Source: Henningerozyma blattae CBS 6284 (lineage: Eukaryota; Ascomycota; Saccharomycetes; Saccharomycetales; Saccharomycetaceae). From it: a stretch of DNA of 64,000 bases. The notes beneath the pieces are model-generated. The model made no database searches, was not told the DNA's origin, and was given only the letters and a program-made list of their open reading frames with translations. Positions within the stretch are counted from its first letter, which is position 1, and the number at the start of each line of letters is the position of its first letter. Of the stretch, positions 24,495-45,089 are shown one piece after another. The DNA lies in contig NC_020190.1 in assembly GCF_000315915.1 (NCBI RefSeq), positions 372,001 to 436,000 on the forward strand. The letters are read 5' to 3'. The translations under genes were made by a program, and so were the position numbers.

Positions 24495-25415
24495 ATGGGC
24501 TTGTTCTGGGCTACCCCTACAAATACAGATTCAAATTCGAACTCAAGCACAACTAAGACATCTGGCAGTAAGCTAGAATTGGAATCCAATTGTCCTTATT
24601 TAAAAGGGAAAAATAGCAGTAAAGATAACGCTAATGTCAGCACTACTCCATTTGAAAATATTTTACAGAGGCAAAACAATAGTATATCCAATGAAGCAAA
24701 CAACCAAGATTCGCTAGACCCTTTAAATCACTTGCCAAAAGATCTTTCTTTATCAGAATTACCTGGGCAATCAATAGATCTTCCAAAGGAAAGAAGCATT
24801 TCGTCAATCCCCAAGGGTAATACAAACACTCTATGGGAATATCCTTCTCCACAGCAGATGTATAACGCTATGGTCAGAAAGGGTAAGATAGACGTTTCTA
24901 CTGGTGAAGAGATTGAGAAAGAAACTGTTATCTCTATGGTTGACGTTCATAATTTTTTAAACGAAGGTTGTTGGGATGAAATATTGAAATGGGAAAAACC
25001 TTACACTGAAAAATCAAATTATAAGCCAACTCTATTAAAGTTTATAGGTAAGCCAGATCAATATTCTCCCAGAGCAAAAGCTATCCATTATTTGAGTATG
25101 ATTCTACCTAATCATTTTTCTAATGAATTACCATTTGATAGACATGATTGGTTTGTTCTTAGAAAAACTGATCCAAATACCCCAATAGATCAAGGCACGA
25201 CTACAAATGCATCAGTAGATGGTGTTACTCCAGGTTTCAAAGTGATTAGATATGTTATTGATTTCTATGGCGGTCCAGATGACAAAAATGGTATGCCAAC
25301 CTTCAATTTAGATGTAAGGCCAGCTCTCGATTCATTGACTAATGTTTGCGATAGATTTAACCACCAATATCAACGGTTTAATCAAAAAAGATCTATTGAT
25401 CCAAAAAAATCATAA
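24495..25415 (+). CDS. CYC3: Cyc3-like cytochrome c haem lyase
   Basis: Predicted holocytochrome c synthase of the mitochondrial intermembrane space, which attaches haem to apocytochrome c. The sequence follows S. cerevisiae Cyc3 closely: WEYPSPQQMYNAMVRKGK, VHNFLNEGCW, LPFDRHDWFVLR, VIDFYGGPDDKNGMPTFNLD and VRPALDSL. The haem-contacting histidine should lie in FDRHDW. It has 306 residues against 269, the difference being a longer Ser/Asn-rich N-terminus. The N-terminal haem-regulatory Cys-Pro element appears once, as CPYLKG at 33-38. The paralogue Cyt2 (haem lyase for cytochrome c1) fits less well. CYC3 is YAL039C; see the tRNA-bounded inversion for its relation to CLN3 and ERV46. Confidence 0.95.
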   Translation: MGLFWATPTNTDSNSNSSTTKTSGSKLELESNCPYLKGKNSSKDNANVSTTPFENILQRQNNSISNEANNQDSLDPLNHLPKDLSLSELPGQSIDLPKERSISSIPKGNTNTLWEYPSPQQMYNAMVRKGKIDVSTGEEIEKETVISMVDVHNFLNEGCWDEILKWEKPYTEKSNYKPTLLKFIGKPDQYSPRAKAIHYLSMILPNHFSNELPFDRHDWFVLRKTDPNTPIDQGTTTNASVDGVTPGFKVIRYVIDFYGGPDDKNGMPTFNLDVRPALDSLTNVCDRFNHQYQRFNQKRSIDPKKS

Positions 25416-25979
25416 CTTGTAAATTTCATCATATTAGACTTTTATACCTCTAAGGAATTGTAATCATATCACATTCGTATTTTACATCATTCATTAATAT
25501 TCCATCCATTACGTACATACTTAAATAATATTATATAACCCTTCTTAATGTTAAGGCATTTTATTATAGTCCTTGTGTTTGTGTGTGTCTGCTTTTTTGT
25601 AAATGGAGCTACCGTATACACAATAGGTATAACGCAATCATGTAGGTTATGTTGGTCCTCAGATTGTTCCTGTTTTTCAGTTTCATCCTCAAATTTTACA
25701 GTTTCTTAGTTAATTATCATGTATTTTTTCATACTGTATTAATTGTTACTGGAAGAAGCTAGTAGGGTACATTCCTAGTTGTCGAGTTGCAAAACCATCT
25801 AACTTTAGGTGTGCTAATAAATATTTACTTCTTAAGTTTTCTACATTATTAAGTACCCAAATCACATCTCTATATATTCATTGCAAGTACTGAGATGTAA
25901 GATACTCCTTGACCTTTAAAATATGGAGACAAGGTATCTGAAATAATCACGTAATCACGTTGTAAATCTCAAAAAAGGA
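25416..25979. other. Intergenic, CYC3 3' region to tRNA-Lys
   Basis: About 560 bp with no gene seen. Near the tRNA end is a direct repeat of AATCACGT (about 25,945-25,960). The sequence just past the tRNA 3' end resembles that past the other tRNA-Lys copy (ATTACGTGA-TAT in both). Confidence 0.5.
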
Positions 25980-26051
25980 AGCCCTGTAGAGGATCGGACC
26001 CCTAACCTTGTGATTAAGAGTCACACGCGCTACCGATTGCGCCAACAAGGC
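25980..26051 (-). tRNA. tRNA-Lys(CTT), probably a decaying copy
   Basis: On the minus strand the acceptor, D and anticodon arms are identical to the intact tRNA-Lys at 40,505-40,577, with anticodon loop CTCTTAA and anticodon CTT. All the differences are in the T arm. The invariant TTC of the T loop is TCC, and the 3' side of the T stem has lost one base and gained a substitution (CCTCT for CCCCCT). The gene is 72 nt instead of 73. The B box GGTTCGA becomes GGTCCGA, which should weaken TFIIIC binding. A T-run follows the 3' end. It may be a pseudogene or barely functional. Confidence 0.75.
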
Positions 26052-27572
26052 CCTTTTTCTTGATATTGTGGTATTACAGATAGAGTGTAGATCGAAATAG
26101 CTTGGTTCTTTTATATATCCGGAATATATAGAACTATAGCCAAAGGTTAGACATTAATGGGAATTAGACAAGTTTATATACAAATTGGACTGGCATGATA
26201 ACATCATGACAACTAGACAACGTGTCTATATATTGTGGGCACGTTGTTTCTGAGGTTGGACTTCAGTACATGAATTACGTGTCTTGGTTGACACGTTAGT
26301 ACTTGTTGGATACAACAGATATTATGGAAATATATACTCTTCAATTATCTCTATAAGATTTGTATAATACAACTTAACTGATATCTAATTGACCAAGTGG
26401 TAATTATCAATTACAATTATCAGGTTTCTGCACACCAAATAAATCGTATATAAAGAGACAAGATTTCTGTGTCTGATCATGAGCTTCTCTTGGAATTCTT
26501 TAATATAGAATAGAAAAAGAAACTGCCAAGCAAAGAAGCAAGATCCTCTCTATACCTTATATTATCTACTCTGTTTATACTTCTAGCATCCTCATCTCTA
26601 TTTAGTTTGTGTCACTTTAGCTTTGTTTTACACCTAATATTGACAATTCCAGTATACCATCTTACTGCTGTTACTATTGCTCAATATCTTCTCTTTTACA
26701 CAGTATCTTTCTTTGTTGACTCCAAAAAATCAACACTAGAAAAGAAGAAGGCACGATAGTAATATAGTATTGAAAGGAAATATATATTAAAAACGATAAG
26801 ATGAGCACAAATAATATGCTAATAGATAATAATATATTTAGATTTAAGAAAAGAAATATAAGTATAAAACGGATATAAAGATGATCTGTATATTTTTTAC
26901 TAGTGCTCTTTCTATTGAAAGGAACTGTATAAGAATAATCTGATGGATTATGATTGAGATGGTTTATATATGACTAAATATTAGATGGTAAGCACATCTC
27001 GTACGGTATGAGTTAAGAAAAGGTGTTATGTAAACACTGTAATTTTAGTAATAAGTTTTTCTTTTGAGTGTGACGGTTGAAATTAATGTGTTACTGATTA
27101 ATAAAACTGTGTTGGAGTATTGGCAAAATTGTGTAGCGTTTGAGTGATAAGTAGGATGCGCATATATTGGAGTATGGTGAATAGAGCAGAATCAGGAGAA
27201 GAGATTGGCAGCATATATAGTATTAGTGTGTGTACGTATTTGAATGTTGTGGTTGATTTACTGACGTTGGATCTAAGAAGTTAGTTTTTGGTTCCAAGTC
27301 AATAGTATTGTATTAAGAATATAAATAATCTTAACGAAGTTTACAATTTACAGAATTGAAAGATTTTCAAAACGTAGTCTAGATAGTTTATTACATAAAT
27401 ATGAGTTTTTTTAATAGAATTAGATTAGTTTATAAATCATAAGGATTATGTATTAGGTATAGATAGTAAATATCTTTATTTAGCATTTCCAAGTAAAAAA
27501 ATGAAAAACAATAAAAGCTCGTTACAAAAATAAAAAAAGGCTGAGCAATAAAAGGTAGCAATTTTAACAACA
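26052..27572. other. Gene-free region between tRNA-Lys and the hexose transporter
   Basis: This 1.5-kb stretch has no gene. Three short hairpins lie at 26,217-26,317, followed by an LTR candidate described separately. The remainder (26,740-27,570) is A/T-rich without recognisable content. Its length and position beside a tRNA fit retrotransposon debris. Confidence 0.45.
26304..26735 (+). mobile_element. Possible delta-like solo LTR
   Basis: It starts TGTTGGATAC, like copia-type yeast LTRs, and ends AAATCAACA. A TATA-like TATATAAAG lies at about 26,447, and a TATACCTTATATTATC-like stretch further on recalls the delta R/U5 part. It is 432 bp long and about 250 bp upstream of the tRNA-Lys 5' end, where Ty1-type elements insert. 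The flanking 5-mers do not match, so there is no target duplication to confirm it. Confidence 0.3.
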
Positions 27573-29276
27573 CTAGGCAACAACCTCTGGTTCTTCAATT
27601 ACATTATTTGCAGCCCTTTGAGAAGGAGGAATCCAGGAACTAGACCTCCATGGATAAGTTTCTTCTTCCCACATTGTATTAATATCATCTAATCCCAAAC
27701 CTTTTGTTTCTGGTACAAAGAAGAAAACGTATAGGAAAGCAAAAACACAACATCCTAAGAAGATATATCCATAATAAAAGTGAATTGATTTGGTAATCCA
27801 TGGAGTACAAAACCCGATAACAAAATTCCACAATTGATTTGACACAATACCTAAGGCCATACCTTTTGATTTGATATTTGTTGGGAAGGTTTCCGATAAA
27901 ATGACAAATGGAACTGGAGCCCACGTTGTAGCAAAGAAGAAAATATAAATACAACTAACAACAATCATGACGTTACCAGCCCATTTACAAGATGGCACGT
28001 CAGAATCTCCAGAATACAAGCTTGTAACACCAACGGTAGCAAAAACTAGCATGCATAAGCCTAAAGCAGCAGAACCAACTAACAAACAAAATCTACGACC
28101 AAATCTATCAACTACATAAAGTGAAACAAAAGTAGACAAAAAGTTAACTACACCAAATATTATAGTAGTTTGAAAAGAGTCATCTAGACCTACTGATTTG
28201 AATACGGTGGCACCATAATAAAAGAAGTAATTTGCACCAGTTAGTTGTTGTAGGCCAAGGACAAAGATACCCATTAAAACACGTTGTAATATTTTATTCT
28301 TACGATGAAATAATTCCTTCCATTGAGCTTCCCCAGCATCAAGCTCAGCTTGTATTCCAGCTTTAACTATTTCGAACTCCTGTAATGTTTCTTCACTTTC
28401 TTTTGAGAGCTTGTTAGAAATAGCAATTGATTCTTTTGCTTCTTCAAACATATTTTGTTGGACTAAATAACGTGGAGATTCAGGAACAAAGGTCATTCCT
28501 GATACCATAATGATACACCATAAAAATTGTAACCCAACAGCAATTCTCCACTGTTTGGAATTCTGGTAGCTTTTAGTACCATAGTTACAACAGTTACCTA
28601 AAAATATACCAAATGTGATCATCAATTGGTAGCAAGAAACCATGGCACCTCTAAGTTCCTTAGGCGCAACTTCAGATATTAACATTGGTGAAAGAACAGC
28701 TATAACACCCATGCCAATACCAGCAATAATACGACCAATAAAGTATTGAAACCATTTGCTTACTGAAGCAATTTGGATGATAACACCAACAACAAATATT
28801 GAAGTACCAAAGATTAATCCCCAACGGCGACCATAAAGATCACCCAGTTTACCTAGAAATACTGAACCAATTGCACACCCAATATTAAAAATAGAAACTA
28901 AAAGACCCATTCTAATAGTAGACAAGTACAATACACCATCTTCATTTTTGGTACCAAATCTTTGAATGAAATCAGTTTGAGCCATAAATCCACCAATGGT
29001 ACCAATGTCCCAACCCATCATAAATCCACCAAAGGCGACCATAATACACATTAGGCATACAGTAGTGTATTTCCAAATATCAGTTGGCTTCTCAGAAGAA
29101 ATAGAGCCTACAGTAGATACTTCCCTAGTTTCAGAGCAAATTTCTTCCTTTGTTCCGAAAGAATTTTCCTCTATCTTTGTAGCGCTTCTATATCTTTTGT
29201 AACTATCTGTACTACCGTCATTCTCCGTAGCGACATTTCTTTCTAAGATTGGTTGTTCAATATCTTCTTGTACCAT
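27573..29276 (-). CDS. HXT: Hexose transporter of the Hxt family
   Basis: Predicted plasma-membrane facilitator for glucose and related hexoses, major facilitator superfamily with 12 membrane segments after a 65-residue cytosolic N-terminus. Sugar-porter signatures are present: GWDIGTIGGF, GKLGDLYGRRWG, VLSPMLISEVAPKELRG, VPESPRYL, LQQLTGANYFFYYG, DRFGRR and FFVPETKGLGL. It has 567 residues and a short C-terminal tail, so it is a transporter and not an Snf3/Rgt2-type sensor. The common Asp in LTGDNYFF is Ala here, which marks it as a divergent Hxt. The exact S. cerevisiae counterpart cannot be named. It has no counterpart in the YAL/YOR order around it and sits inside the tRNA-bounded segment. 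It shares a promoter region with ERV46. Confidence 0.9.
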   Translation of the reverse strand: MVQEDIEQPILERNVATENDGSTDSYKRYRSATKIEENSFGTKEEICSETREVSTVGSISSEKPTDIWKYTTVCLMCIMVAFGGFMMGWDIGTIGGFMAQTDFIQRFGTKNEDGVLYLSTIRMGLLVSIFNIGCAIGSVFLGKLGDLYGRRWGLIFGTSIFVVGVIIQIASVSKWFQYFIGRIIAGIGMGVIAVLSPMLISEVAPKELRGAMVSCYQLMITFGIFLGNCCNYGTKSYQNSKQWRIAVGLQFLWCIIMVSGMTFVPESPRYLVQQNMFEEAKESIAISNKLSKESEETLQEFEIVKAGIQAELDAGEAQWKELFHRKNKILQRVLMGIFVLGLQQLTGANYFFYYGATVFKSVGLDDSFQTTIIFGVVNFLSTFVSLYVVDRFGRRFCLLVGSAALGLCMLVFATVGVTSLYSGDSDVPSCKWAGNVMIVVSCIYIFFFATTWAPVPFVILSETFPTNIKSKGMALGIVSNQLWNFVIGFCTPWITKSIHFYYGYIFLGCCVFAFLYVFFFVPETKGLGLDDINTMWEEETYPWRSSSWIPPSQRAANNVIEEPEVVA

Positions 29277-30454
29277 TTTGAGTCTAAAAAAACTTATTCT
29301 TGTTCTTTCAAAAGTAAAAGAGTCTACAAAATATTATCCTAATTACACATTTCAATATCAGAACAGAGACCACAATCTATAGCCTCTATTTATATATGAT
29401 TTTAAAAATAAATGTACATTTTAATCGGATGCTCTAAAACCAAATTTATCTTCTCGAGAATTACCCTTTAAATTTTGTTTTTTTAACTTATTCATCTTCT
29501 AGAATATTTTTACCACTATAAAAGTAGAGAAACCTTATTATTCGAACCTGTATTTCCTACTCGTGTCCCTAAAAAGAAATTGTTCGGCGTTTCTTTCAAA
29601 CGCGTCTTAAAACTCCGAAGATTACGAAAATGCACAAAAAAGTTTCATATTTTAGGATATATTTCAAACAATAATAGCTTGTTAGCATATTATAGAATGT
29701 CTCGTAGTAATGTATTTACTAGAATTTTCTTCGAGGAAAATTAAAAATTCTGCATTATTCTTCATGAAGATAGTTTTGTACGGAAATTTTTCTCAAAAAA
29801 TTTTCACTATAGAAGATACAATATCAACAATTGTAGATTCCTGGGAAGTTTTATCTTTTTTTAAAATGATGACTTGTTACCCAATGTAACATCCTTCTAT
29901 TATTCCAAAAAAAAACATTTAACTAACATATCTTGGATACATTTGACTAACGATTTCTTATCATGTCTTTATCATGTTAATATTCTTTTTTTTTCTTAAT
30001 TTAATGATAACTATTAAATTAGTTGCCTTAGATAAAGCGGATGTGTATTCCAAATAGTGCTACTATAAAATACAAATGTTATTCTCCACGGAATATCACA
30101 GTATTAAGTCAAGATAGATAGCATTACAGGACCCCCAAAAAAAACAAATATAAATTTACGATATTTGGAAGACTAAGGTCCTAGAATACTGATTAGAATT
30201 TAGATAAACATGATTCTAAAAATTCTACATCGTGAGCCATAGATTTTTACAATAGTATCTTGTCAATAATTTTTATCGCTCAGTAAGGAACGGAAAATTC
30301 GCGAAAATTAAGTCTCTTGAAAAATTACTTTTCTTATTGGAATACAAAATATTTAAAAAATTATTCAGAATATTAACCGTTAATTGGATAAAAGTTAAGC
30401 GGATAATAATATCTGGACCATTCACCAAAAAATTATTGTGAAATTCATTGTGTA
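29277..30454. promoter_or_regulatory. HXT/ERV46 divergent upstream region
   Basis: About 1.2 kb with no gene. CGGANNA sequences, the Rgt1 repressor core, occur at 30,089, about 30,291 and about 30,395, which could serve glucose control of the transporter, but they lie closer to ERV46 than to HXT and the motif is short. No other strong signal is seen. Confidence 0.3.
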
Positions 30455-31699
30455 ATGCAACCGAAACTGCTATCCTTCGATGCATTTAATAAGACTGACG
30501 AGGAAGTCCGTATTCGTACCCGTACCGGTGGTATTATAACATTATTTTGCATATTGACGACTTTATATTTATTACAAAAAGAATGGATAGAGTATTATAA
30601 AATCACAAATAAACCACAAGTAGTTGTTGATAGGGATAGACATCTGAAGTTAGAGTTAAATTTAGATATCACCTTCCCATCATTATCATGCGATCTAATT
30701 GGTTTGGATATAGTTGATGATTCGGGGGAAACAAGTTTAGATGTACTTGAATCAGGGTTTACTAAAATCAGAGTTGACACAAATGGTAATGAATTAGATG
30801 ATGGTTCTCAATTAGATGTCGGTACTGATAGGGAGTCTTTATCATCTTTGGATATGGATAAAGCTAAATATTGTGGGCCATGTTACGGTGCCTTGGATCA
30901 ATCAGGTAACGATAATATTGATGTTGCAAGTGAAAAAGTATGTTGTCAAACATGTTATGATGTACGTAAAGCTTACACAGACGTAGGCTGGGCATTTTTT
31001 GATGGTAAGGACATAGAGCAATGTGAAAGAGAAGGATATGTTGATAGAATTAATGATCATCTTCATGAAGGTTGCAGAATTGTTGGCAGTGCTTTATTAA
31101 ATAGAATTCAAGGGAATGTTCACTTCGCCCCTGGTGCTGCATTTGAAACAGCAAAAGGCCATTTCCATGATACCTCTTTGTATGATAAAACTGAACAATT
31201 AAATTTCAACCATATTATTAACCATTTAAGTTTTGGTAAGACGGGACATGAATTGCTAACTCCAAAATCTTCAAAATCATTTTCTGTTAGTAGAAGACAA
31301 CCATTAGATGGACGTGTTATGATACCAGAATCTAGGAATACACACTTCTTTCAATTTTCATATTTTGCTAAGATTGTTCCAACACGGTTTGAAAGTCTAA
31401 GCGGAAAAGTTGAAGAAGCAGCTCAATACTCTGTTACTTTCCATTCAAGACCTTTACAAGGTGGTAGAGATGAAGATCATCCAAACACTTTCCATGGTAG
31501 AAGTGGTATTCCTGGTTTATTTATCTACTTTCAAATGGCACCATTAAAGGTAATTGATATAGAAGCTCATTCCCAAACGTTTTCTGGTCTTCTACTAAAT
31601 TGTATCACTACAATTGGTGGTGTTCTAGCTGTCGGTACCATGATGGATAAAGTCTTTTATAAAGCACAACGCTCTATCTGGGGGAAAAAAAACCAATAG
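30455..31699 (+). CDS. ERV46: Erv46-like COPII vesicle cargo receptor subunit
   Basis: Predicted ER-Golgi membrane protein that, with Erv41, retrieves escaped ER proteins. It is 414 residues, against 415 in S. cerevisiae. The N-terminus (LSFDAFNKTDEEVRIRTRTG) matches Erv46, and a first membrane segment follows at about 26-43. The large luminal domain includes paired cysteines (YCGPCYGA, VCCQTCYDV). The second membrane segment lies at about 376-398. The protein ends KKNQ, a C-terminal dilysine KKXX signal for ER retrieval. ERV46 is YAL042W. On reversal of the tRNA-bounded segment its order and strand relative to CYC3 and CLN3 match S. cerevisiae. Confidence 0.95.
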   Translation: MQPKLLSFDAFNKTDEEVRIRTRTGGIITLFCILTTLYLLQKEWIEYYKITNKPQVVVDRDRHLKLELNLDITFPSLSCDLIGLDIVDDSGETSLDVLESGFTKIRVDTNGNELDDGSQLDVGTDRESLSSLDMDKAKYCGPCYGALDQSGNDNIDVASEKVCCQTCYDVRKAYTDVGWAFFDGKDIEQCEREGYVDRINDHLHEGCRIVGSALLNRIQGNVHFAPGAAFETAKGHFHDTSLYDKTEQLNFNHIINHLSFGKTGHELLTPKSSKSFSVSRRQPLDGRVMIPESRNTHFFQFSYFAKIVPTRFESLSGKVEEAAQYSVTFHSRPLQGGRDEDHPNTFHGRSGIPGLFIYFQMAPLKVIDIEAHSQTFSGLLLNCITTIGGVLAVGTMMDKVFYKAQRSIWGKKNQ

Positions 31700-32094
31700 A
31701 AGCGTGTTGTATTTTTCTCTATATAACTTGATTTATAGTAGTCAATAATATAAATAGCATTAATACTAATTTAATTCTTTATTGTTTTTGAAGGGTATGT
31801 TACCACATAAATCAACTAAAACACAGATAAATGGAATAGTGTTTTTTTTTCAAAAAAGCAATTAATTGTTAGGATGAATTCTCTAACATTAATATATTGT
31901 TGAGGTTCGGAGTAATTTAAAAAAAAATAAATATAAAAATTAATAAATAAAGCTAAAAAAATAAATATAAAAAATTAATAAATAAAGACTAGAAAAAATA
32001 AATAAAGTTAGAAAAATAAATAGTCTTCAAAACATTATAGAAAAATTTTCAAATGTCACAAATTGTCACTAGCATTGAAATCGCTATCTGGCTA
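31700..32094. other. Intergenic between convergent ERV46 and CIR2
   Basis: Short 3'-3' spacer without a gene. It contains the A/T-rich tandem repeat described at 31,921-32,020. Confidence 0.6.
31921..32020. repeat. A/T-rich tandem repeat
   Basis: Two nearly identical units of 34 and 36 bp (31,921-31,954 and 31,955-31,990), each with ATAAATAT and AATAAATAAAG, followed by two shortened partial copies. It lies between two convergent 3' ends and probably arose by slippage. Confidence 0.75.
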
Positions 32095-33942
32095 TTATAA
32101 ACGTGAATATTTTGGACCATCTCCTCCCTCTGGTACAGACCAATCGATTTGTTGATTTGGTGATTTAATATCGCATGTTTTACAATGAACACAATTTTGA
32201 GAATTGATACTAAACTTGACTTTTCCTGTACTATTTTCATCTTCAACAAATTCGTAAACACCAGCTGGACAAAATCTTTGCTCAATACCCTTCCATTGTG
32301 GGTATGAGTTATTAGCAAATTTGTCTAAATCCTGGTCTGGAACTCTCAAGTGACATCTTTCATCGTGATCATGGTAAGTCCCTGACCTTGATACTGACAT
32401 CATGATATCGAAGGAAATTTTATTATCTGGCTTTGGATAATTAATAGGTTTATAATTTTTTGCTAAAGATGTTACAGAGGAATCAGATTCATGTAATGGG
32501 AAAGTCCAAGGAGCATGTCCCTTTAAGATTAAAGAGTCAAGACCAGAATAACACATTCCTAATATGTTACCTACAGGTGAATTGAATGATGGTCTAATGT
32601 TTCTTACCTTGTAAAGTTCTTTAGATATCGATGAATTTTTCACGGCTGTGTTATATGACTGTAAGTCGATAGGTTTATCAACCAATTTGATATCATTTTC
32701 AGTATCCTCGATTTGAGGTAACTTAGATATATTTTTAAAAATCTCCTCGGCAGCCAAGATTCCTGATTTAACAGCATTGTGACTCCCTTTAATTTTTGGG
32801 ACATTCATAAATCCTGCTGTTGCCCCTACTAAAATACCACCTGGGAAGTTTAATTTAGGGATTGCTTGATAACCACCTTCATTTAATGCTCTTGCACCAT
32901 ATTCTAAACATTTCCCATCTTTCAAAACATTGGCGTAATAAGGATGGTGTTTCATTTTCTGAAATTCTTGATAGGGAGAGACATATGGGTTTTTATAATC
33001 CAATCCCATCACCAACCCGACGGCAACCAAGTTATCACGCAGATGGTATTGGAAACCACCTCCATAAAGATCATTAGATAATGGGAACCCCATGGTATGT
33101 GTAACAAAGCCTGGCCTAAAATTTTCAGGTTTTACCTCCCAAAGTTCTTTAATTCCTAACCCATATGTCTGCATCATTGAATCCTTTCTTAAATCGAATT
33201 TTTTAATCATTTTTTTGGTTAAAGAGCCATGACAGCCTTCAGCTAATACTGTTTGTCTGGCATGAAATTCCATTCCTTTCTCAAAAGTATCCTTTGGAGA
33301 ACCATTTTTAGAAATTCCCAGATCTCTTGTTTTAACACCTTTTATTGAGTTGTTATCCGAGTCATAAACAACATCGGAGACACTAACAGAGGGGTATATT
33401 TCAATCCCCATATTTTCGGCTACTTCACCAAGATATGAGGTAATTTCACTTAATGAACCAATAAAATTTCTATTTTTATTCACTAAATCAGATGGTTTAG
33501 GCATTGGAAATCTCCAGCTTTTGGTTAAAAAACAAAATTCTTCTTCTTTAATTGGAGTTACTAAATTTGATGGTAGAGGTAGTCTTTTATCATTCAAAGT
33601 ATAGTTAGAATCAGGGAACAGTTCAAACCAAACATCAGGTTCAAGAATTACACCAGATAAATTATGAGAGCCAATTGTAGAACCTTTCTCTAACAAGATA
33701 ACTCTTAATTTGTCATCCAAATCCAACTGTTTTAATTTTATTGCTGTTGCTAATCCAGAAGGTCCCCCCCCTACAATGCAAACATCGACATTTTCAATTA
33801 CGGGAGGTTCATTGATTTGATCCTGTTGACTTTGTGATAATTGATTAAATGGTATCTCTGTTGAGATTGCTCGATAAAATATTTTTTTGTAAAGTGAACA
33901 ATAACTTAACTGTTTTGGCTTAAACACTATGTTTCTGAGCAT
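32095..33942 (-). CDS. CIR2: Cir2-like electron-transfer flavoprotein:ubiquinone oxidoreductase
   Basis: Predicted mitochondrial inner-membrane ETF dehydrogenase that passes electrons from electron-transfer flavoprotein to ubiquinone. It is 615 residues (S. cerevisiae 631). The N-terminus is basic and poor in acidic residues, as expected of a mitochondrial presequence. The FAD dinucleotide-binding motif VDVCIVGGGPSGLATA lies at about 52-66. The ETF-QO wording GATAGFMNVPKIKGSHNAVKSG is near 380-400, of which the SHNA part is typical. The 4Fe-4S cluster cysteines are in FCPAGVYEF near 555 and NCVHCKTCDIKSP near 585-597. CIR2 is YOR356W. Its 3' end faces ERV46. Confidence 0.95.
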   Translation of the reverse strand: MLRNIVFKPKQLSYCSLYKKIFYRAISTEIPFNQLSQSQQDQINEPPVIENVDVCIVGGGPSGLATAIKLKQLDLDDKLRVILLEKGSTIGSHNLSGVILEPDVWFELFPDSNYTLNDKRLPLPSNLVTPIKEEEFCFLTKSWRFPMPKPSDLVNKNRNFIGSLSEITSYLGEVAENMGIEIYPSVSVSDVVYDSDNNSIKGVKTRDLGISKNGSPKDTFEKGMEFHARQTVLAEGCHGSLTKKMIKKFDLRKDSMMQTYGLGIKELWEVKPENFRPGFVTHTMGFPLSNDLYGGGFQYHLRDNLVAVGLVMGLDYKNPYVSPYQEFQKMKHHPYYANVLKDGKCLEYGARALNEGGYQAIPKLNFPGGILVGATAGFMNVPKIKGSHNAVKSGILAAEEIFKNISKLPQIEDTENDIKLVDKPIDLQSYNTAVKNSSISKELYKVRNIRPSFNSPVGNILGMCYSGLDSLILKGHAPWTFPLHESDSSVTSLAKNYKPINYPKPDNKISFDIMMSVSRSGTYHDHDERCHLRVPDQDLDKFANNSYPQWKGIEQRFCPAGVYEFVEDENSTGKVKFSINSQNCVHCKTCDIKSPNQQIDWSVPEGGDGPKYSRL

Positions 33943-34448
33943 TTTTTTAGGTATTTATATATATACAGGGTTGAATAAAAAGAAATTTTATAAAAATTTT
34001 GAAAATTCTTGATAAATTTAATTCTTAACAATTGATGAGCTATATATTTTCACCAGTACAAAATTACTGTTACCTTTTAACCTGAAAATATTGAAAAATT
34101 CTTAAATTGTTCCTTAAACAGATCCAACGAGATTTTGTCAATGTCACTTTTTCGGAACTAAATGAGTCCTCAAACGTCCGTTTTAGAAATCTCCGAGTAT
34201 GAATACAGTAAAGAGTCACGAAAAAAAGGATAGCGCCGTTCGTTGAAAAAATATGCAGACTAGTTATATATATATACACATACATGAAAGAGAGTATTTA
34301 TGTTATATTTATGCAAAACTAAAAAGAATAATGAATGTTAACGTTTCTATAGTTGTTTTTTAATTTTTTTAAAAAATGTAGTTTTATGCTGTTTTAGGGA
34401 TTTATGAGTTAAGTTATATGTAGGCAGAGAACCAAGAAGATTATGTGT
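33943..34448. other. Intergenic, CIR2 upstream to CLN3 3' end
   Basis: About 500 bp, A/T-rich, without a gene. It holds the CIR2 promoter and the CLN3 3' region. Confidence 0.5.
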
Positions 34449-36104
34449 TCATGGGAAGGATCTTTTGCTTCTCTTAGCGTTATAATCATTACTATCATTA
34501 TCTAAATTGCTTATATTTGCGGACCTCTTTTTGCTCAATAGATTTTGATTAAATAAAATATTAAGAATTGTTGACATTTGAGCAGGGGTATTAATGGAAA
34601 TTTGTAAGGATAGTTTTTGAAAATTAGGAAATAGATACATTGGGTTATATGTAGAACCTGGTGAAGTCATTGAATTAAATATGTTTGCGTTTGAACGATT
34701 TGATGGAGGTGGAGAAGATACTGGAGTAGATGGAGTCATTAAAGCATTATTATGCTTTACAGAGATATTCCTTATCACTGAGCGATCTAAAGTATGTGAA
34801 GCACTAGTTAATAGAGAAGGTGTAGAAGAAGTACCATTTGAGTTATTAGATGGAGTTTTTGGAGTTGCCAACAGATCGTGCGAAGATACCATCTGGAAGT
34901 AAGAGGTGCTATTAGCACTACTTGGATGCTTAGAATTAGGAGTTTGATTTTGAATGGCCTGATAGCTTGAAGAACCAATAATTTTTGGTGAGTCGGAGGG
35001 AACAAAATCAAATTTCAAATTAGTATTTAATGTTGATGTAAAATTAGGAGGAGGAACCAAGTTTGTTTCATTATAGTTTTTTAGGGCAGACAATATAATA
35101 CTCGAATTTCTATTTTGACTGGAATATTTTATATTGAACGTAGTTGGATGTGATCTTTTATCTTGTGAAAACTTAATAAAAATATTAATTAAATCTATTA
35201 ATCTCGAGTCTTCTACTAATGAATTGATTTTTAAATTGTTTTGTGAATTAAAAGAATTTTTTAAAATTAATGACAATGATAATGAAACTGAAAGAACCGA
35301 AGCCATAACAATTTCACTTTGAGAATATGTTTGGAAAATTTCATAACATTTAGGATGGAAATAAAATAATTCTAATAACATAATAGAACCGTATCTAATC
35401 AAGTGGTTTATTGGGATAGAAGTGTTATTGCGATGACCATTATTCAAAAGAAATAAATCTAACAAATTTGTAAAATTTAAACAACCAATAGACCATTCAA
35501 AACTCTTCAAAATAGTGAATTCCATATTAATGAATTGATCTCTATTGAAAAAATTATTACACAACGAAACTAACGTATTAATTGAAATAATTTTAGCCTT
35601 TGGTTCATGAAGTTTTATAGATAACCAAAGACAAGTTAATGCCATTAATTGGAAATTATTTGTTGATATTTTAAAATTTTTGATAAATTTATCAATCAAA
35701 TTAAACGTTTGAAACAATGTTATTGAAGATAATGATAATCTTGTATGAGAAGAATAAATAAAATCTAGAATCAACGATCTAATATTTAAGATTGATGGTT
35801 CAATAGTAAATTCAACCATAGTACTATTTCTATCAGTGGGTAGAGTATCTAACGATAAATGATATTTCAAGATATCTACAGAATAGACATTCAAAAATGT
35901 AGTACAATGCGCCAAGTTTTCATTTCTCACCAAACTTTTGTTTTTAGCCTTAACACAGGAGATATGACGTCTTGTACGAGATAATTTTATATGGAAAGCC
36001 TTATATTCATCTGAATTTATGTCGAAATTACAATTAGGCATTATATTCTCGTTAATATTTGCCATGTCAGTATCGTTATTTGTATTTAAATTTTCTAAAG
36101 ACAT
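34449..36104 (-). CDS. CLN3: Cln3-like G1 cyclin
   Basis: Predicted G1 cyclin that activates Cdc28 to start the cell cycle. The cyclin box lies at about 105-235, with LILDFIYSSHTRLSLSSITL, FQLMALTCLWLSIKLHEPKA and FTILKSFEWSIGC. The C-terminal 200 residues are Ser/Thr/Pro/Asn-rich, like the PEST region that makes Cln3 unstable, with several SP/TP sites. A bipartite basic motif (KKRSAN then AKRSKRSF) ends the protein, as in S. cerevisiae Cln3, where it is a nuclear localisation signal. It is 551 residues against 580. Similarity is moderate, as usual for Cln3, but context helps: CLN3 is YAL040C, the neighbour of CYC3, once the tRNA-bounded segment is reversed. Confidence 0.85.
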   Translation of the reverse strand: MSLENLNTNNDTDMANINENIMPNCNFDINSDEYKAFHIKLSRTRRHISCVKAKNKSLVRNENLAHCTTFLNVYSVDILKYHLSLDTLPTDRNSTMVEFTIEPSILNIRSLILDFIYSSHTRLSLSSITLFQTFNLIDKFIKNFKISTNNFQLMALTCLWLSIKLHEPKAKIISINTLVSLCNNFFNRDQFINMEFTILKSFEWSIGCLNFTNLLDLFLLNNGHRNNTSIPINHLIRYGSIMLLELFYFHPKCYEIFQTYSQSEIVMASVLSVSLSLSLILKNSFNSQNNLKINSLVEDSRLIDLINIFIKFSQDKRSHPTTFNIKYSSQNRNSSIILSALKNYNETNLVPPPNFTSTLNTNLKFDFVPSDSPKIIGSSSYQAIQNQTPNSKHPSSANSTSYFQMVSSHDLLATPKTPSNNSNGTSSTPSLLTSASHTLDRSVIRNISVKHNNALMTPSTPVSSPPPSNRSNANIFNSMTSPGSTYNPMYLFPNFQKLSLQISINTPAQMSTILNILFNQNLLSKKRSANISNLDNDSNDYNAKRSKRSFP

Positions 36105-36602
36105 CGATAAATTAATGAATTTTTTTTGAAAGTTAAATTTGTATTAATGTTTAATTTATGACGCCCTAAGATATTGCGGAGAAAGGATATGCTGGATTAG
36201 GGAAAAAATGCGACGGTAAAACCAAAGATATAGAAATAGGTTTCAGTTTTTTTTTTAAATTATATTAATTGGTATCAAAAGCGATAGAATAAATGAAGCA
36301 AAACGTGACCTCCTTTATGAATATTTCAGGTTGAAAAGTAAGGCTAAAATGAACTATTAGTCTGTTGGATAAAAAAAAGATGTAATATAGTACGACGAAA
36401 TATAAGATTCCACTAAAATTGGTGCAGATATGCTTGCTTATATTTGATCGTAAACTCAATAATGACTATGTCGACTTAGTAATAAAATATGTCAACGTGT
36501 AAGTATTTTACGGTTAAGATATCCGAAGAATGTGTGAAGAATGGTGATACTGAAATGAATAAAAATATAAAACAAAGAGATGAAACACTAACAATAGTAA
36601 AT
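36105..36602 (-). promoter_or_regulatory. ATG-free leader or proximal promoter of CLN3
   Basis: On the CLN3 strand there is no ATG for 498 nt before the start codon. With this base composition about nine would be expected. The S. cerevisiae CLN3 leader carries a regulatory upstream ORF; no such ORF can exist here within 498 nt. The first upstream ATG (complement at 36,603) comes just before a Rap1-like site. Confidence 0.55.
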
Positions 36603-37742
36603 CATTGATAAACCTGGCGGTAACGGTTGGTGTGTGGGTGACTGTATGCTCCTTTAGTAGTACAGAAGTTTAAGAGAAACCACTCCACCAACTTACAGCT
36701 TAGCTCATCCTTATATATCAAGTGAGTTTGACTTATTGTTCATAAAGTATATATGTAATGTCACTCTGAGTAGTTCAAACTAAAACGATATTCCCCCCCA
36801 CCTTCAACTTTCCAAGACAGCCCTTGCTAGAAAAAAAAAATTTCATAACTCTTGTGTAATACCTTAGTTGTAAAATTTTGAAAGAAAACTGCCTAGTACA
36901 AGCCTAACGTTATAGTGACCAGACAAGCTACAACTTTCTAGGTTAACGTTAAGAATGCTTCAAATATCCTCGATTGTACAGACAAATATGACCAAGCACT
37001 TTTCCTAACCCAAGTTGGCAAGTAGACCCAGTGGAATGATGCTACTGTAACTCGCCCTAAACCGTTTGCCAGCCTGCAGCACCATCCCTCTTGGGTCATT
37101 TTGGCAGAGTGTCTTCAAGATAGAAATTTCTGAAATTTGCTCAGGACTTCGATAACTGTTCGATAGACAGATTGTAAGAGGGAGCTACTACCCACTCTCC
37201 CAAACAAGCAAAAACGTCATATCCAGGAGTACATGGTCCATGAAAAATTTGTGTTAGGGCGGTATTAAGCCACCAAGTGAGTAATCACATTGGCTTTGAA
37301 CATGTAAAAAAAATTCTCTACATGGAGACAGCCCACAAAAAAAAAATTTCAACTTTTTAACACATGTAATTTTTGCCAAAATTAGATGTCCCGGCACTCT
37401 TGCTTTATTAGGCATAGCCGGGTTTTATTTTAGTTTATTTTTTCTTTTTTTAATTTTTTAATTTTTTTTTTCTCTTCAACTACAGGGAGAAACTAGAAAT
37501 GTAACAAAATGAAGAAAAACGTGACTGGGCTGAACTTTGGAATATGCGGGTAACTTGTTCCCATTGTGTAGTGATGTAATCAAGAAAACTGGAATTAAAA
37601 TAGAGGTTAAATTTAAAGGGAGCGTACAGCAATACCAATAATAACACAGGTAAGACGAAGTAGTGACTACTGCTACCATTTTTTTTAACTGTATTGGGAT
37701 ACGATCCGATTCTGTAGGGACTCTTTACCGTTATTATTAAAT
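36603..37742. promoter_or_regulatory. CLN3/MSC6 divergent upstream region
   Basis: No gene is visible. A Rap1-like GGTGTGTGGGTG is at 36,629-36,640, 525 bp before CLN3. About 36,950-37,260 is more G+C-rich than its surroundings. The right end, next to MSC6, has T-rich tracts (37,435-37,475). No clear early-cell-cycle-box (Mcm1) match was found. Confidence 0.4.
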
Positions 37743-40232
37743 ATGCTAAGGGTAAGATCTATAGCTATTCTTCAGAGAAGATTACTATCTCAAGTTTCTT
37801 CTACTACAAATCCCACTCATTCTAATGCACCCACTTTAAATGTGGATCAGCCTGCTTCTCAGAGAGATGTACAAGGTAATAATATGAACCGAACTTTGGC
37901 ACATAAGAGGAATAAATATCAATATTCTCAGACAAGAGATAATACAGATCCAAGATCATCGTTGACAGCCAAATTGAATGAAGATATATTATCTGCTTCA
38001 ACTATTGATACGCAACGTGCTATTAAATGCTTGAAGGATTGGGCTCAGAAAAATATCTCTCAATCTGACAACTATTATTATCCGTATAGAAACTCGGAAT
38101 TGGAATTCACTCTAACTGATGTAATTAATCGAATCATTAAAAACAAAGACTCCATTACCAAAACGAGTCCAAATCCGGACGTGGTGAAAAATAATGATCC
38201 ATATTTAATCTTAGACTCGTTAATCTCTTTAAATTTAGCCACTAAACAACATTTCTATTTGGTTTGGGAGAATTTATTATTTGTGGATAAAAATTACAAA
38301 GATGGGCTGGCATTATGGATTAGATATTTAGAAACCTCTAAAACTAACTCTTATTCATCCAAGAATTCGGATAGTAAAGCTATTAGTTTTACATTTTTAT
38401 CTTATCTATTACAATTGCATTCTGAAAAACTAAATCCAGATTATAACTTTATTAAAGCATACTTGCATCTAAATAATATTACGGAAAATACAACAACTGA
38501 TGTATCGAGAAAATCTACGAAAAAACTATCTTCCAAAGAAAGCTCAGTGGATAATTATTTAACAAATAACCTGCAAAAAATTAAAAATGATAAAAATTTG
38601 CTACCATGGACATCAATTTTCAACATGATAGATGCTCACAAACATAAATTGAATTCACAAGATATCGATTTAAACCGTGTAATTCAAAAAATTTATCAGC
38701 AATTTGTAATTGAAGAGGAAGATGTCTATCTAGACTATTTAGATAACATCACCAAATTCCAAACATTAATGAGGCACTATAATTGTTATTTTGCAAGTCT
38801 AGACACTGCTAAACCTGAAGTAATTGAACATTACTTTAAATTAGTGATTTATAAATTCCATCGTATGGCTTCTCTTTTCAAGCTATATTCTGTTATTACA
38901 AAAGAAGCTAACAATTTACTTACCCCATCCATTAAGAATTGTTTATTATCAGCTATTTCATTGCAAAATTCCAAGGATTCTAAAGATAAATGCTTAGCTA
39001 TATGGAATGATATTATTGATGTTAAAGATTCAAATGCTTATGTACACTTATTTGAATGCTTCTTACGTTTGAAATTTCCCAAGGAACTTAAACAACTTTA
39101 TGAAAATGAACTACCAGTTGAATTTAAATCAATAGATAAATCAGATTCCGATATCATAGCTTTAACAACTAATCATATTAAAAATGATATTGACGTCGAA
39201 AGAAACAGGAATATTTTCCTCTTAAAGGTCTATTACGAAATTGCAAAATATGAACTTGAAGGAAAATCCGTTGATCTAGATGTTAAGGCTTTATTAAATA
39301 ATGACCTGTCGAATTTTAAATTTTTAAATGAACAATTAATCGAGTATCTTTTATTAAAACTAATACTTGTCAAAAAGGGAGATAAATTTATTAATTTTGA
39401 ACAGTATAAGGAATGCTATAAATTTGCTCAACAAAATTATTTTATTTCATCGAATTTACCTATATTCTTTGCCATTGATTTTTATTCAAAATTAATTGAA
39501 GATTCACAAAATAAATCATCCACAACTATCTCAAAATCTAACCCAAATACAGCTTCAACTTTGAAATCTCTATATCCTTCAACCTTCAAACTTTTAAATA
39601 ATTATGACAATTACGGATTATTATTTTCTAATTTGAAAAGGGTATCAGATGCCGGAAATAGGATTAAATACTTAGAGCCATTATGCAATATACTTTTACA
39701 ATGCCTAAATTCTAAGTCAAATACAGATAATTCGTTTCCTTTGCCATTTAAGTATCCATTACTATACGCTTTACGTGAATTACTTTTATCTGATTATATC
39801 ACGTTGGTTCTAAGATCAAACATTTCTAAGGATCCAGGAAACTTTAATAATTTAATGGACACACTAAAGTACTATTATTATTTATTTGAAGATAAAAACT
39901 CCGGATTAAAACCAGATATTCTTAACAAGATTATTAAATTGTTAGCAATTGCAAACTTTAAACCTGCCTCTAGCCATTACAAATTTGTCATTGATTTTAT
40001 TCAATTACTATATACCAGCAAATTTAAACCACGATCATCATATTGGACTACATTATCCACCAATCTTCTAGGTAAGGATACCTATTATAAAGAAATGGCA
40101 AATTTTCATAGTTCGAAGACAGCTACCGAAGCAAAGTCGAATGATATTATACACAATGTTGAAGATACAACTTCAAAGGAAGATTTAAATGAGGCTCATA
40201 ATGGAAATGTTAGAGAAACAAAAGCTTTGTAA
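37743..40232 (+). CDS. MSC6: Msc6-like mitochondrial PPR-type protein
   Basis: Probable mitochondrial protein with degenerate helical pentatricopeptide-like repeats; S. cerevisiae Msc6 is mitochondrial and affects meiotic sister-chromatid recombination phenotypes, with a poorly defined molecular role. The N-terminus (MLRVRSIAILQRRLLSQVS) is a typical mitochondrial presequence: Arg-rich, amphipathic, no acidic residue. The rest is alpha-helical, Leu/Lys/Asn-rich, without membrane segments. It is 829 residues against 692 for S. cerevisiae Msc6. I assign it partly by place: after reversal of the tRNA-bounded segment it follows SOG2 and precedes CIR2, exactly as YOR354C does. Sequence recognition alone would be weaker. 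Confidence 0.68.
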   Translation: MLRVRSIAILQRRLLSQVSSTTNPTHSNAPTLNVDQPASQRDVQGNNMNRTLAHKRNKYQYSQTRDNTDPRSSLTAKLNEDILSASTIDTQRAIKCLKDWAQKNISQSDNYYYPYRNSELEFTLTDVINRIIKNKDSITKTSPNPDVVKNNDPYLILDSLISLNLATKQHFYLVWENLLFVDKNYKDGLALWIRYLETSKTNSYSSKNSDSKAISFTFLSYLLQLHSEKLNPDYNFIKAYLHLNNITENTTTDVSRKSTKKLSSKESSVDNYLTNNLQKIKNDKNLLPWTSIFNMIDAHKHKLNSQDIDLNRVIQKIYQQFVIEEEDVYLDYLDNITKFQTLMRHYNCYFASLDTAKPEVIEHYFKLVIYKFHRMASLFKLYSVITKEANNLLTPSIKNCLLSAISLQNSKDSKDKCLAIWNDIIDVKDSNAYVHLFECFLRLKFPKELKQLYENELPVEFKSIDKSDSDIIALTTNHIKNDIDVERNRNIFLLKVYYEIAKYELEGKSVDLDVKALLNNDLSNFKFLNEQLIEYLLLKLILVKKGDKFINFEQYKECYKFAQQNYFISSNLPIFFAIDFYSKLIEDSQNKSSTTISKSNPNTASTLKSLYPSTFKLLNNYDNYGLLFSNLKRVSDAGNRIKYLEPLCNILLQCLNSKSNTDNSFPLPFKYPLLYALRELLLSDYITLVLRSNISKDPGNFNNLMDTLKYYYYLFEDKNSGLKPDILNKIIKLLAIANFKPASSHYKFVIDFIQLLYTSKFKPRSSYWTTLSTNLLGKDTYYKEMANFHSSKTATEAKSNDIIHNVEDTTSKEDLNEAHNGNVRETKAL

Positions 40233-40504
40233 ATAAACTTGATAACATCATCTATAGCTTATGTATATTAATCTTCATGTAAATATCAAATATAAAAAGT
40301 TCATAATATTTCTTAATTTTGTGATACTCTATTACAAACAATACCAATTAGTTCAATATTTAACAGTTTAATTTTTAAAATTGTTCGCTTATAAAAACAC
40401 ATATAAGCTCTCGTATTTACTCTATATTGGAGTAAAATAGGAAAAAAAACTATTCAAAACTATATTGTATATAATAAGGTTTTCTTGAATTTTCAAGAAA
40501 AAGA
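40233..40504. other. Intergenic, MSC6 3' region to tRNA-Lys
   Basis: No gene seen. Immediately before the tRNA is TCAAGAAAAAG, shared with the sequence upstream of the other tRNA-Lys copy. Confidence 0.5.
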
Positions 40505-40577
40505 GCCTTGTTGGCGCAATCGGTAGCGCGTGTGACTCTTAATCACAAGGTTAGGGGTTCGATCCCCCTACAGGGCT
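40505..40577 (+). tRNA. tRNA-Lys(CTT)
   Basis: Intact 73-nt cloverleaf: acceptor GCCTTGT/ACAGGGC, D arm GCGCAATCGGTAGCGC, anticodon stem TGTGA/TCACA with loop CTCTTAA (anticodon CTT, reading AAG), and T arm AGGGG-TTCGATC-CCCCT. The A box and B box (GGTTCGATCC) are intact. No intron. A T-run follows, as expected for Pol III termination. It is the inverted partner of the damaged copy at 25,980-26,051. Confidence 0.97.
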
Positions 40578-42079
40578 TTTCTTTTTTTATCATAAAAATT
40601 ATAATTACGTGACTATGGCAGAGGCAATAGTTTTATTTTTTTGCTGCCCTTAATGGTATATATTTTTGCTGCTAGTTTAATACTAACTGTTCATTAAACT
40701 ATATACCGGTACCTATGAAAGTTAAATATGATATTATTACGTTCCGATTTGATCACAATATATTTTCATCTTTTTTTATATCTTGTCCTTTTTGTTTTTC
40801 TGTTCCTTATATCTTTGTTCTACCTTAATCCTCTGGGTTATTTCTTTTAGCTTTAGATTCTTAAATAGAATTTATGTTCATGATTCACTTACTTATTGAT
40901 TCACAAGCCCATTTCGTTATCACGTGCCATCTACGTATAAACGTGACTAGCGTGAGCGCTACGTGACAGCAAATTTCTTGTTTCTCTATTGTAAAGATCA
41001 ATGAGTATCATATATCTTAGAATTTAAAATGACAGAAACACAAAGAAAACATGTGTCAAGATTTTAAATTATTTACCTTCGTACCAATAAGAAATAAAAT
41101 TTAGTTAAGTGCTTAATAATCGCCAATCACAGCATTTTATTGTATGAAATTTAATGGTATATACAAAGAAAAAACTCCTTAAAAATATCAAGTAGTTAAT
41201 ATTCCCCTTGATTTTTTTATTTCTTTATTCAACCTATACTTGACACCAATGAGTTCCATTGTACATACCACCGTTTGACTTAAAAATAATACAATTTTTT
41301 CAAAACTAACCGTCATGGATATAGAACAAAAATCTAGAAACCCTAGATATTTTATGCCAAAAGAAAAATATGATGACGGGTATCGAAAGCAAACTGTCAA
41401 TAACGAAGAATTTTACGGTAGTTTCTCTCTTTCATGCTAACTTGTACCAAAGCGTTGTCCTACGGAGATCTTACGGAGATCTTGAAAACTACGGCATTAA
41501 AAAAACCTAAAATTAAAGGAAATAATACCTAACATAGGAACTCCGTAGAACATTAATCTAGAACTTAATACGAATTTTTTAAAGTAAATCATAATGTAAT
41601 ATTTTTACAATTCTTAAATATTAATTAGGCAAGGTATGATTATTTCATACTAAATTGCATTCCTTAAAATTTTGGCTTTTGAGAACAAGAAAAAATATGA
41701 AAAAAAAAGGTAGGCTTTTAGAAGAGGATATTTTTAAAAATTCGATTAGGTTATATTTGATTATTACATGCTTATCGGGTAGAAATCAAAACTGAGTAGG
41801 TTTAAAAATTATATTCTCCAATTTATTTTTAAATTAAATTTAAAAATATAAACTAATTTTAGTTAATTAACTTAAATAGAAGATGATTACATGGAATTTG
41901 TGAGTAAAAATGTTTATAATGATTAGTATAAAATTACATATATTGTACAATGTAATTCGTCTATTTAGAGTCCCCACTTAAATGAAAAGAGAAAAAGCAA
42001 AAAAAGGCAAAATCGAACCAAACATGCACAGGTGTTTGCTTATTTACAAAGTTTAATATTCATACCATTAGGTAAGTGA
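40578..42079. other. Gene-poor region, tRNA-Lys to YPR114W orthologue
   Basis: About 1.5 kb without a convincing gene. At 40,919-40,970 is a cluster of CACGTG and ACGTGA/TCACG elements (E-box type). One short plus-strand ORF at 41,315-41,440 is described separately. The rest is A/T-rich. Confidence 0.45.
41315..41440 (+). CDS. Possible 41-residue small ORF
   Basis: ATG to stop encodes 41 residues beginning MDIEQKSRNPRYFMPKEKYD. Its make-up is polar and aromatic with one Leu, unlike the Ile/Phe/Leu-rich products of random A/T-rich frames. No family is recognised and an ORF of this length can occur by chance. Low confidence. Confidence 0.15.
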   Translation: MDIEQKSRNPRYFMPKEKYDDGYRKQTVNNEEFYGSFSLSC

Positions 42080-44379: not shown

Positions 44380-45089
44380 AATTGCGTAAAACAACTGCTG
44401 GAAAAAGTTGTTAATATCCTTTTTAAGGGTGTTTTAAACTATTGAACGAAAAAAAAATAAGATTCTAAGTAGTCCTTAATAATCATTTACATTAAATCAC
44501 TGAAACTTTTTCTTAATCAGACACATTTTACGCATTTTCTCAAATTTCACTCCTGTTCGTGAACTAAGCCGAATAAAAACAATAACAACGTGACGTAAAA
44601 GTGAATTCAATAGATTTAAAAAGCAGTACTGAAAGTTTGTTAAATTTGCAATCAATGTTAATAATATTTAATGCTATCCCCAACCAATGCTTGCAAATTG
44701 TAAAGTTCTGTTTATTTCTAATTTATAGGTAATTGATTATCATGGAAATTTTTTGAGGTAAATAATTGCTCAGATATCTTACCAAGATTATTCTGATACC
44801 TTAAAGTTATGCAAGAATAATTGTTACTTATCCAATAGCCTTTTTTTTAGATTACATTCAATTATTTTGATGAAGATTTTCTATACTATTTCATTTTCCA
44901 GTTCTCTCTTGTATACATAAAATAATATTCGTTATTTCCGCGGAATTTTCTATTATTAGGAATATAAAGCTTCCGAAGTTAATGAAATGAAAAATTTAGA
45001 ATTCTTGTATTAAAGCATCTATAAGTCAATAATAGTACGAATGTGAATAAAAACTTAGAAGTTAAAATAACAGAGTATCTTGAGTAGCT
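44380..45089. other. PIS1/RRP46 divergent upstream region
   Basis: About 710 bp of A/T-rich sequence with no gene. It holds both promoters. No strong site recognised. Confidence 0.5.

Follow-up and report, generated by a model that had tools for sequence, protein, structure and literature searches.

What turned over a block of genes between two oppositely oriented lysine transfer RNA (tRNA) genes of the yeast Henningerozyma blattae CBS 6284, and can the segment still turn? The block lies in a 64,000-nucleotide stretch of contig C6 (positions 372,001 to 436,000; hereafter the window) of a 14,041,469-base genome assembled into 10 contigs, and its genes are referred to by Saccharomyces cerevisiae names put on Pfam or PDB matches, unless stated otherwise. 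A sequence-only reading of the window had attributed a reversal of about 14.5 kb to recombination between the two tRNA-Lys(CTT) genes, which it took to bound the segment exactly, and had suggested that the segment may still be able to flip. Comparison of gene orders revealed that the block formed by ERV46, CIR2, CLN3, and MSC6 is reversed relative both to the assumed S. cerevisiae order and to its own duplicate track, and that its right end is also the junction of a reciprocal translocation, which the earlier reading had missed. As a whole, we favor an account (probability of about 0.58, with rivals that overlap it) in which crossing-over between the tRNA-Lys genes inverted the block at the site of the translocation junction, the inversion being old and not a switch.

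Reversal of the gene block

The reference order consisted of YOR351-362 from left to right and YAL039-054 reversed, assumed to be the order in S. cerevisiae; a literature search with five YOR35x names found no publication. Eight window genes and seven genes of their continuation on contig C5 were compared with it by scanning the signed order over all 45 possible reversals. Four genes that lacked a place in the reference or an identification were omitted: the window's beta-mannosyltransferase gene and, from C5, one OYE-type gene plus two open reading frames (ORFs) of 1,274 and 202 amino acids (aa). In the present arrangement, 11 of the 15 strands agreed with the reference, as did the order of 49 of the 51 same-track pairs. 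Two of the 45 reversals, those of the ERV46-MSC6 block with or without the HXT-type transporter gene beside it, yielded 15/15 strands and 51/51 pair orders, bearing out the earlier claim that reversal restores both order and strand.

A second reference was provided by the genome itself, that of a yeast descended from the whole-genome duplication, in which C1:1,071-1,119 kb is the unflipped partner track. This track begins with MRS6, RPS12, RAD17, PEX22, SCP1, AIM2, GEM1, a gene for a BolA protein, and VTS1 and continues with ERV46(+), CDC24(+), GDS1(-), CLN3(-), CIN1(-), pyruvate kinase(+), and REV1(-); one ORF of the stretch had no Pfam match, and the putative GDS1 ORF was left out of the Pfam search together with two others. 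The window and C1 copies of ERV46 were 57.7% identical over 409 aa, and the C1 copy of CLN3 was the best match of window CLN3 (32.9% over 225 aa; E value, 1.9e-28). On C1 it is CLN3 that faces CIN1 and pyruvate kinase, a place taken in the window by ERV46, and the MEK1-SOG2-CYC3 genes of the left flank presumably belong on the CIN1 side of the ancestral order. The reversed block spans a minimum of 9.8 kb, about 14.5 kb between the tRNA genes, and a maximum of 16.7 kb.

With regard to the genes that the earlier reading had placed between the tRNAs, HXT, ERV46, CIR2, and CLN3 were supported by Pfam, while MSC6 stayed unconfirmed: the 829-aa ORF that we assume to be MSC6 had no Pfam match, its PDB matches all had E values of 0.16 or worse, and a homologue search with the protein at an E value of 0.001 came back empty.

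A translocation junction at the right end

To the right of 40.6 kb, the window continues with a YPR11x/YGR09x block instead of the expected SNX3 and PTA1. The latter were found on C5, where SNX3 (PDB match to the sorting nexin GRD19, 6e-55), HAP5, PTA1, GCV3, PRT1, and PRE10 run from 125.9 kb, and where RGC1, RRG8, TEL2, MDR1, PCP1, NOP7, and MRI1, to the left of SNX3, make up the absent half of the YPR/YGR block. Because the halves on C5 and C6 complement each other in the assumed S. cerevisiae order, with the genes named from their Pfam matches, these contigs carry both products of a reciprocal translocation. A simple stand-alone inversion is ruled out, since the right flank comes from another ancestral block, and reversal of the block accordingly restores its left neighbor only.

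The C5 junction (124,667-125,854) contains simple tandem repeats. ARAGORN found no tRNA in it, only short chance words were shared with the tRNA query, no match to the other sequences compared was obtained, and 124,790-125,860 found only itself in the genome. The HAP5-like ORF on the same contig (C5:126,802-127,341) has a guanine-plus-cytosine (GC) content of 65%.

The tRNA-Lys genes and their flanks

Both tRNA genes proposed by the earlier reading, in inverted orientation, were recovered with ARAGORN and Rfam (Table 1). The pair forms an inverted repeat of 73 nt with 97% complementarity and arms 14,429 nt apart, the longer of the two inverted repeats of at least 40 nt listed for the window. 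By rough hand arithmetic from tRNA densities (including 5 tRNAs in 224 kb), the chance of finding a same-type inverted tRNA pair in both breakpoint intervals is near 1 in 10,000.

At least 15 tRNA-Lys(CTT) loci occur in the genome, a 16th match sitting on a tRNA-Arg gene, and 14 of the 15, including the right window copy, are identical over 73 bp. By gapped alignment, the T arm of the left copy differs from the others by two substitutions and one deletion (nine differences if ungapped, owing to the shift caused by the deletion), and this copy scores 10 bits lower than the right copy on the tRNA model. Because these changes affect the B box as well as both the stem and the loop of the T arm, the left gene is probably decaying; against this, it is still called by ARAGORN, has 57.5 bits against an RF00005 cutoff of 29 (exceeded by both copies), and shows no nonstandard pair in the Rfam alignment. 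Its differences may also have been caused by an assembly error. In single-strand folding, neither copy gave the standard cloverleaf as its minimum-energy structure, and the altered copy folded slightly better.

Elsewhere in the family, three identical tRNA-Lys(CTT) genes lie within 3.7 kb at C7:294,387-298,033, the first two inverted and 0.8 kb apart with a repeat resembling a long terminal repeat (LTR) in between. Two further tRNA-Lys genes, at C5:619.6 kb and at C1:2,589.2 kb, share 95.7% identity across 999 bp when 1,000 bp of their downstream flanks are compared, indicating that tRNA loci of this genome have also been copied with long flanks.

Comparison of the two breakpoint intervals returned two matches, both inverted: 130 bp at 85% over the tRNA region, and 63 bp at 75% (E value, 7e-8). 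The 63-bp match adjoins an LTR-like insert on the right and continues the 3' flank of the tRNA on the left, so that the homology amounts to about 100 bp of 3' flank in all. Once the insert was removed, the left and right 3' flanks aligned from the end of the tRNA on with a z score of 8.1, whereas the best 3' flank of any other Lys copy reached 4.6 against the left and 2.2 against the right one. The 63-bp stretch holds 47 identities. None of 198,394 randomly drawn intergenic pairs had more than 39, and up to 20,000 such pairs with 31 registers each likewise reached 39. The join across the insert was picked after the BLAST match was known; with the insert retained, the 160-nt 3' flanks showed no relation (z score, -0.8), and a blind comparison of the left 3' flank with all sequence to the right of the insert gave a z score of 2.2. 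The insert-removed local alignment extends to ~140 bp, and past the first 110 bp of the left 3' flank no significant homology was detected (z score, 0.6). The upstream flanks of the pair had no clear relation (z score, 1.9, compared with up to 2.1 between the left copy and others). Used as genome queries, the 3' flanks found only themselves, in searches insensitive enough to miss the 75% identical partner as well. These alignments indicate, as a new observation, that each 3' flank of the pair is closer to its partner than to that of any other Lys copy. Beyond the insert they differ by 25% (K of about 0.31), and the flank duplication looks old. The left tRNA was probably kept until lately, because it differs at only three sites, compared with a flank that has diverged by 25%.

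The short shared flanks mentioned in the sequence-only reading exist, but they are partly generic; the 3' flanks are homologous beyond the motif described next. One of ACGTGA, TCACGT, and CACGTG lies within 70 nt downstream of 9 of the 15 tRNA-Lys copies, including both window copies, against an expectation of 2% by shuffles and 3% by window density, with the flank-sharing copies not being independent counts. The motif lies 19 to 31 nt downstream of these nine genes and also follows some Thr, Asp, and Arg genes, at a distance of 24 to 42 nt; it may be a transcription-factor site tied to genes transcribed by RNA polymerase III. Six Lys copies lack the motif, and in four of these (L012, L013, L017, and L019) an LTR-like repeat begins within about 65 nt. 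Upstream of the pair, a CAA with a run of A resembles the usual start-site motif of yeast tRNA genes.

Breakpoints and competing explanations

Dispersed repeats lie in both breakpoint intervals, and their size, copy number, and position beside tRNA genes suggest that they are LTRs. The two repeats did not match each other; when 25,416-30,454 was compared with 40,233-42,079 at an E value of 0.01, the tRNA region with its 3' flank was the only similarity, leaving LTR-LTR recombination between the block ends unsupported. The segment may be bounded by the tRNA genes, as the earlier reading stated, but its left breakpoint can be placed only within 5 kb that hold the tRNA gene, an LTR-like repeat, and HXT, and the right interval likewise contains an LTR-like repeat besides the tRNA gene. 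HXT was apparently gained at the left breakpoint, and its nearest paralogue found is 76% identical (C5:479 kb). Among the best candidates only, this large family counts 23 near-full-length places with 55 to 76% identity to the window gene (itself excluded), 12 of which cluster at C1:806-868 kb. A tblastn search for relics of neighboring genes in the intergenic parts of the window gave nothing below an E value of 0.17, save for the self-match of one window ORF. A further, 416-bp LTR-like repeat at 57,741-58,158, directly upstream of a tRNA-Thr gene, is 96 to 97% identical to copies beside four tRNA-Lys genes (on C3, at C5:800 kb, and two on C7) and seems younger than the repeats of the two breakpoints.

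In the likeliest mechanism, crossing-over between the two oppositely oriented tRNA-Lys(CTT) genes would have reversed the block, at a site that served as a breakpoint more than once. At some time, the 3' flank of the right tRNA would have acquired an LTR-like repeat, and decay of the left tRNA would have set in lately. The inversion appears old and not a switch, as far as one assembly shows. Recombination between the inverted tRNAs is likely, as the earlier reading held, but it is not the sole remaining mechanism, and several points weigh against it. The related 3' flanks would also fit a duplication by staggered breaks; the C5 junction, where neither a tRNA nor a dispersed repeat was detected, bears no trace of tRNA recombination in the translocation; and LTR-like repeats are present at both ends of the block. 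Moreover, outside the C1 track, the ancestral order is assumed from S. cerevisiae gene names, as is the placement of MEK1-SOG2-CYC3 on the CIN1 side, and the polarity of the change is provisional.

The tRNA pair may have caused the inversion, but it could also have arisen from it. In a staggered-break inversion, which we regard as rather unlikely, a single tRNA-Lys locus would have lain at one breakpoint, and offset breaks followed by fill-in would have left inverted copies of the tRNA and its 3' flank, so that the pair would be the result. In a related and slightly less probable form, the staggered breaks would have occurred at a single tRNA gene, perhaps where a replication fork had stalled, and each end of the block would have received a copy of that gene with its 3' flank. 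The tRNA with about 100 bp of outward-facing 3' flank does form an inverted duplicate at both ends, lying on both sides of the LTR-like insert; the flank alignment and the identities beyond the insert exceed those of other Lys copies and random pairs, respectively, and homology ends near the 5' end of the tRNA. On the other hand, the flank statistics depend on a join chosen after the match was known, and the insert-retained and blind comparisons gave the low scores reported above. Since the tRNA-Lys copies are numerous and dispersed and others among them share flanks, duplication of a tRNA with its flank before the inversion is equally possible. In addition, staggered-break inversion is not known from yeast, which counts against it here. 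The geometry is that left by staggered breaks, a mechanism described for Drosophila (PMC5080602). If such copying is true and general, some inverted tRNA pairs at the ends of yeast inversions would be a consequence of the inversion, although such pairs are usually taken for its cause.

Two successive reciprocal translocations, or one three-break event, might replace inversion plus translocation, a doubtful reading that overlaps the others. Three ancestral adjacencies have given way to three new ones, and the block lies at a shared junction; two translocations have the same outcome as a translocation followed by an inversion of a region containing one of its endpoints (Gordon 2009, PMC2675101). 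Inverted tRNAs of the same isoacceptor at both ends of the block, however, favor an intrachromosomal step.

It is similarly improbable that tRNAs and LTR-like repeats merely mark fragile or insertion-prone sites, where end joining or LTR recombination with third sites acted and no crossing-over between tRNAs took place. Consistent with this, the repeats occur in both intervals, one interval gained HXT, no dispersed repeat was found at the C5 junction, and TY- and tRNA-mediated changes are difficult to separate in Eremothecium cymbalariae, according to PMC3276169. Against it, the two LTR-like repeats do not match, while the tRNA region and its 3' flank do.

An actively flipping, polymorphic segment is highly improbable, and present-day flipping appears unlikely: the inverted pair is present, but in this one assembly the earlier suggestion of continued flipping found no support, as long near-identical inverted repeats of the kind expected for recurrent flip-flop are lacking (the longest unbroken identity between the copies is 54 bp), the left tRNA carries changes, and divergence has brought the flank past the insert down to 75% identity.

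Other features of the window

The left flank retains the ancestral orientation at the MEK1-like kinase gene, which we take to be YOR351C, and the beta-mannosyltransferase gene between MEK1 and TFB6 is an apparent gene gain relative to the assumed S. cerevisiae order. In the other ancestral block, the first gene, encoding a TLC-domain protein, is presumably YPR114W, and a PDB search with its product up to an E value of 0.1 gave no match; RRP46 and RPC40 had PDB matches at 5e-89 and 4e-186, respectively. Positions 10,001-12,000 of the window are GC rich (37.8%) and contain no ORF of 150 aa.

Table 1. Features of the window, with positions counted from its first nucleotide
Feature	Position	Strand	Basis or remark
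MEK1-like kinase with FHA domain	13,184-14,716	-	Pfam Pkinase and FHA; left flank
Beta-mannosyltransferase	15,571-17,697	-	Pfam BMT
TFB6	19,373-20,356	+	Pfam TFB6, 1.3e-30; left flank
SOG2	20,987-23,968	-	Pfam SOG2, 3.8e-108; left flank
CYC3, cytochrome c heme lyase family	24,495-25,415	+	Pfam Cyto_heme_lyase, 1.7e-93; last gene to the left of the flipped block
Left breakpoint interval (CYC3/ERV46)	25,416-30,454	.	Gene map; contains left tRNA-Lys, LTR-like repeat, HXT
Left tRNA 3' flank	25,878-25,979	-	Homologous to right tRNA 3' flank; 47/63 in register at 25,878-25,940
Left tRNA-Lys(CTT)	25,980-26,051	-	ARAGORN; Rfam RF00005, 57.5 bits
Dispersed LTR-like repeat	26,365-26,735	.	30 genome matches listed, including window copy
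HXT-type sugar transporter	27,573-29,276	-	Pfam Sugar_tr
ERV46	30,455-31,699	+	Pfam; inverted
CIR2, ETF-ubiquinone oxidoreductase (ETF-QO)	32,095-33,942	-	Pfam; inverted
CLN3, cyclin	34,449-36,104	-	Pfam; inverted
MSC6	37,743-40,232	+	Putative name, supported by position; inverted; identity unconfirmed
Right breakpoint interval and translocation junction	40,233-42,079	.	YOR35x/YAL04x block against YPR11x/YGR09x block
Right tRNA-Lys(CTT)	40,505-40,577	+	ARAGORN; Rfam RF00005, 67.4 bits
Right tRNA 3' flank, part before LTR-like insert	40,578-40,619	+	
LTR-like repeat in right tRNA 3' flank	40,620-40,969 (approximate)	.	40 places scored among 102 candidates, including window copy
Right tRNA 3' flank, part beyond insert	40,970-41,032	+	Homologous to 3' flank of left copy
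TLC-domain protein	42,080-42,976	-	Pfam TRAM_LAG1_CLN8; first gene of other ancestral block
Rest of YPR11x/YGR09x block	43,702-56,625		PIS1-like, RRP46, VAS1-type, DRN1-like, RPC40, UTP22-type
ACGTGA/TCACGT/CACGTG motif, examples	25,947-25,961; 40,607-40,612; 57,620-57,630		Downstream of tRNA genes

Comparison with known systems

In fission yeast, recombination between dispersed tRNA genes reportedly gave rise to translocation in work by Szankasi from 1986, and the present locus is a further example of a known route of yeast chromosome rearrangement. A single breakpoint here joins an inversion, a translocation, a gene gain, tRNA genes, and LTR-like repeats, and both translocation products as well as the unflipped duplicate track are available within one genome. 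Moreover, examining the related 3' flanks in relatives would be a clean and cheap way to tell whether yeast inversions are caused by inverted tRNA pairs or leave them behind.

A literature search covering the species, its synteny, tRNA inversions, and relatives revealed no paper on this locus, as judged by titles and abstract openings, and the available portion of PMC3141009 mentions neither tRNA nor blattae. According to published work, tRNA genes occur at breakpoints at ~3 times the expectation in the S. cerevisiae lineage, where 21 breakpoints are common to an inversion and a translocation and where a tRNA, a breakpoint, and a gene gain (without an origin) coincide at 11 sites against 0.2 expected (Gordon 2009, PMC2675101). 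When S. cerevisiae was compared with three relatives, every inversion identified was flanked by oppositely oriented tRNA genes (Kellis 2003, cited in PMC7990762).

The block resembles these Saccharomyces inversions in having inverted tRNAs, here even of the same isoacceptor, at both ends of a reversed segment, and it differs from them in that it looks old (75% identical flanks), one tRNA is altered, the 3' flanks are related too, and the right end coincides with a reciprocal translocation. Like the known breakpoints shared by inversion and translocation, it combines both events at one site with a tRNA and a gained gene, but in another species and with both translocation products located, one of them without a tRNA found. 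As in the staggered-break inversions of Drosophila (PMC5080602), the reversed segment has an inverted duplicate at each end, whereas the duplicate here is a tRNA plus ~100 bp, and such a pair could come from the tRNA family with no staggered breaks involved. Finally, the 24-kb flip/flop inversion polymorphism on Saccharomyces chromosome XIV (PMC9731477) likewise reverses a gene block of similar size, in contrast to the single orientation seen here in one assembly, where the repeats consist of a tRNA and a diverged flank.

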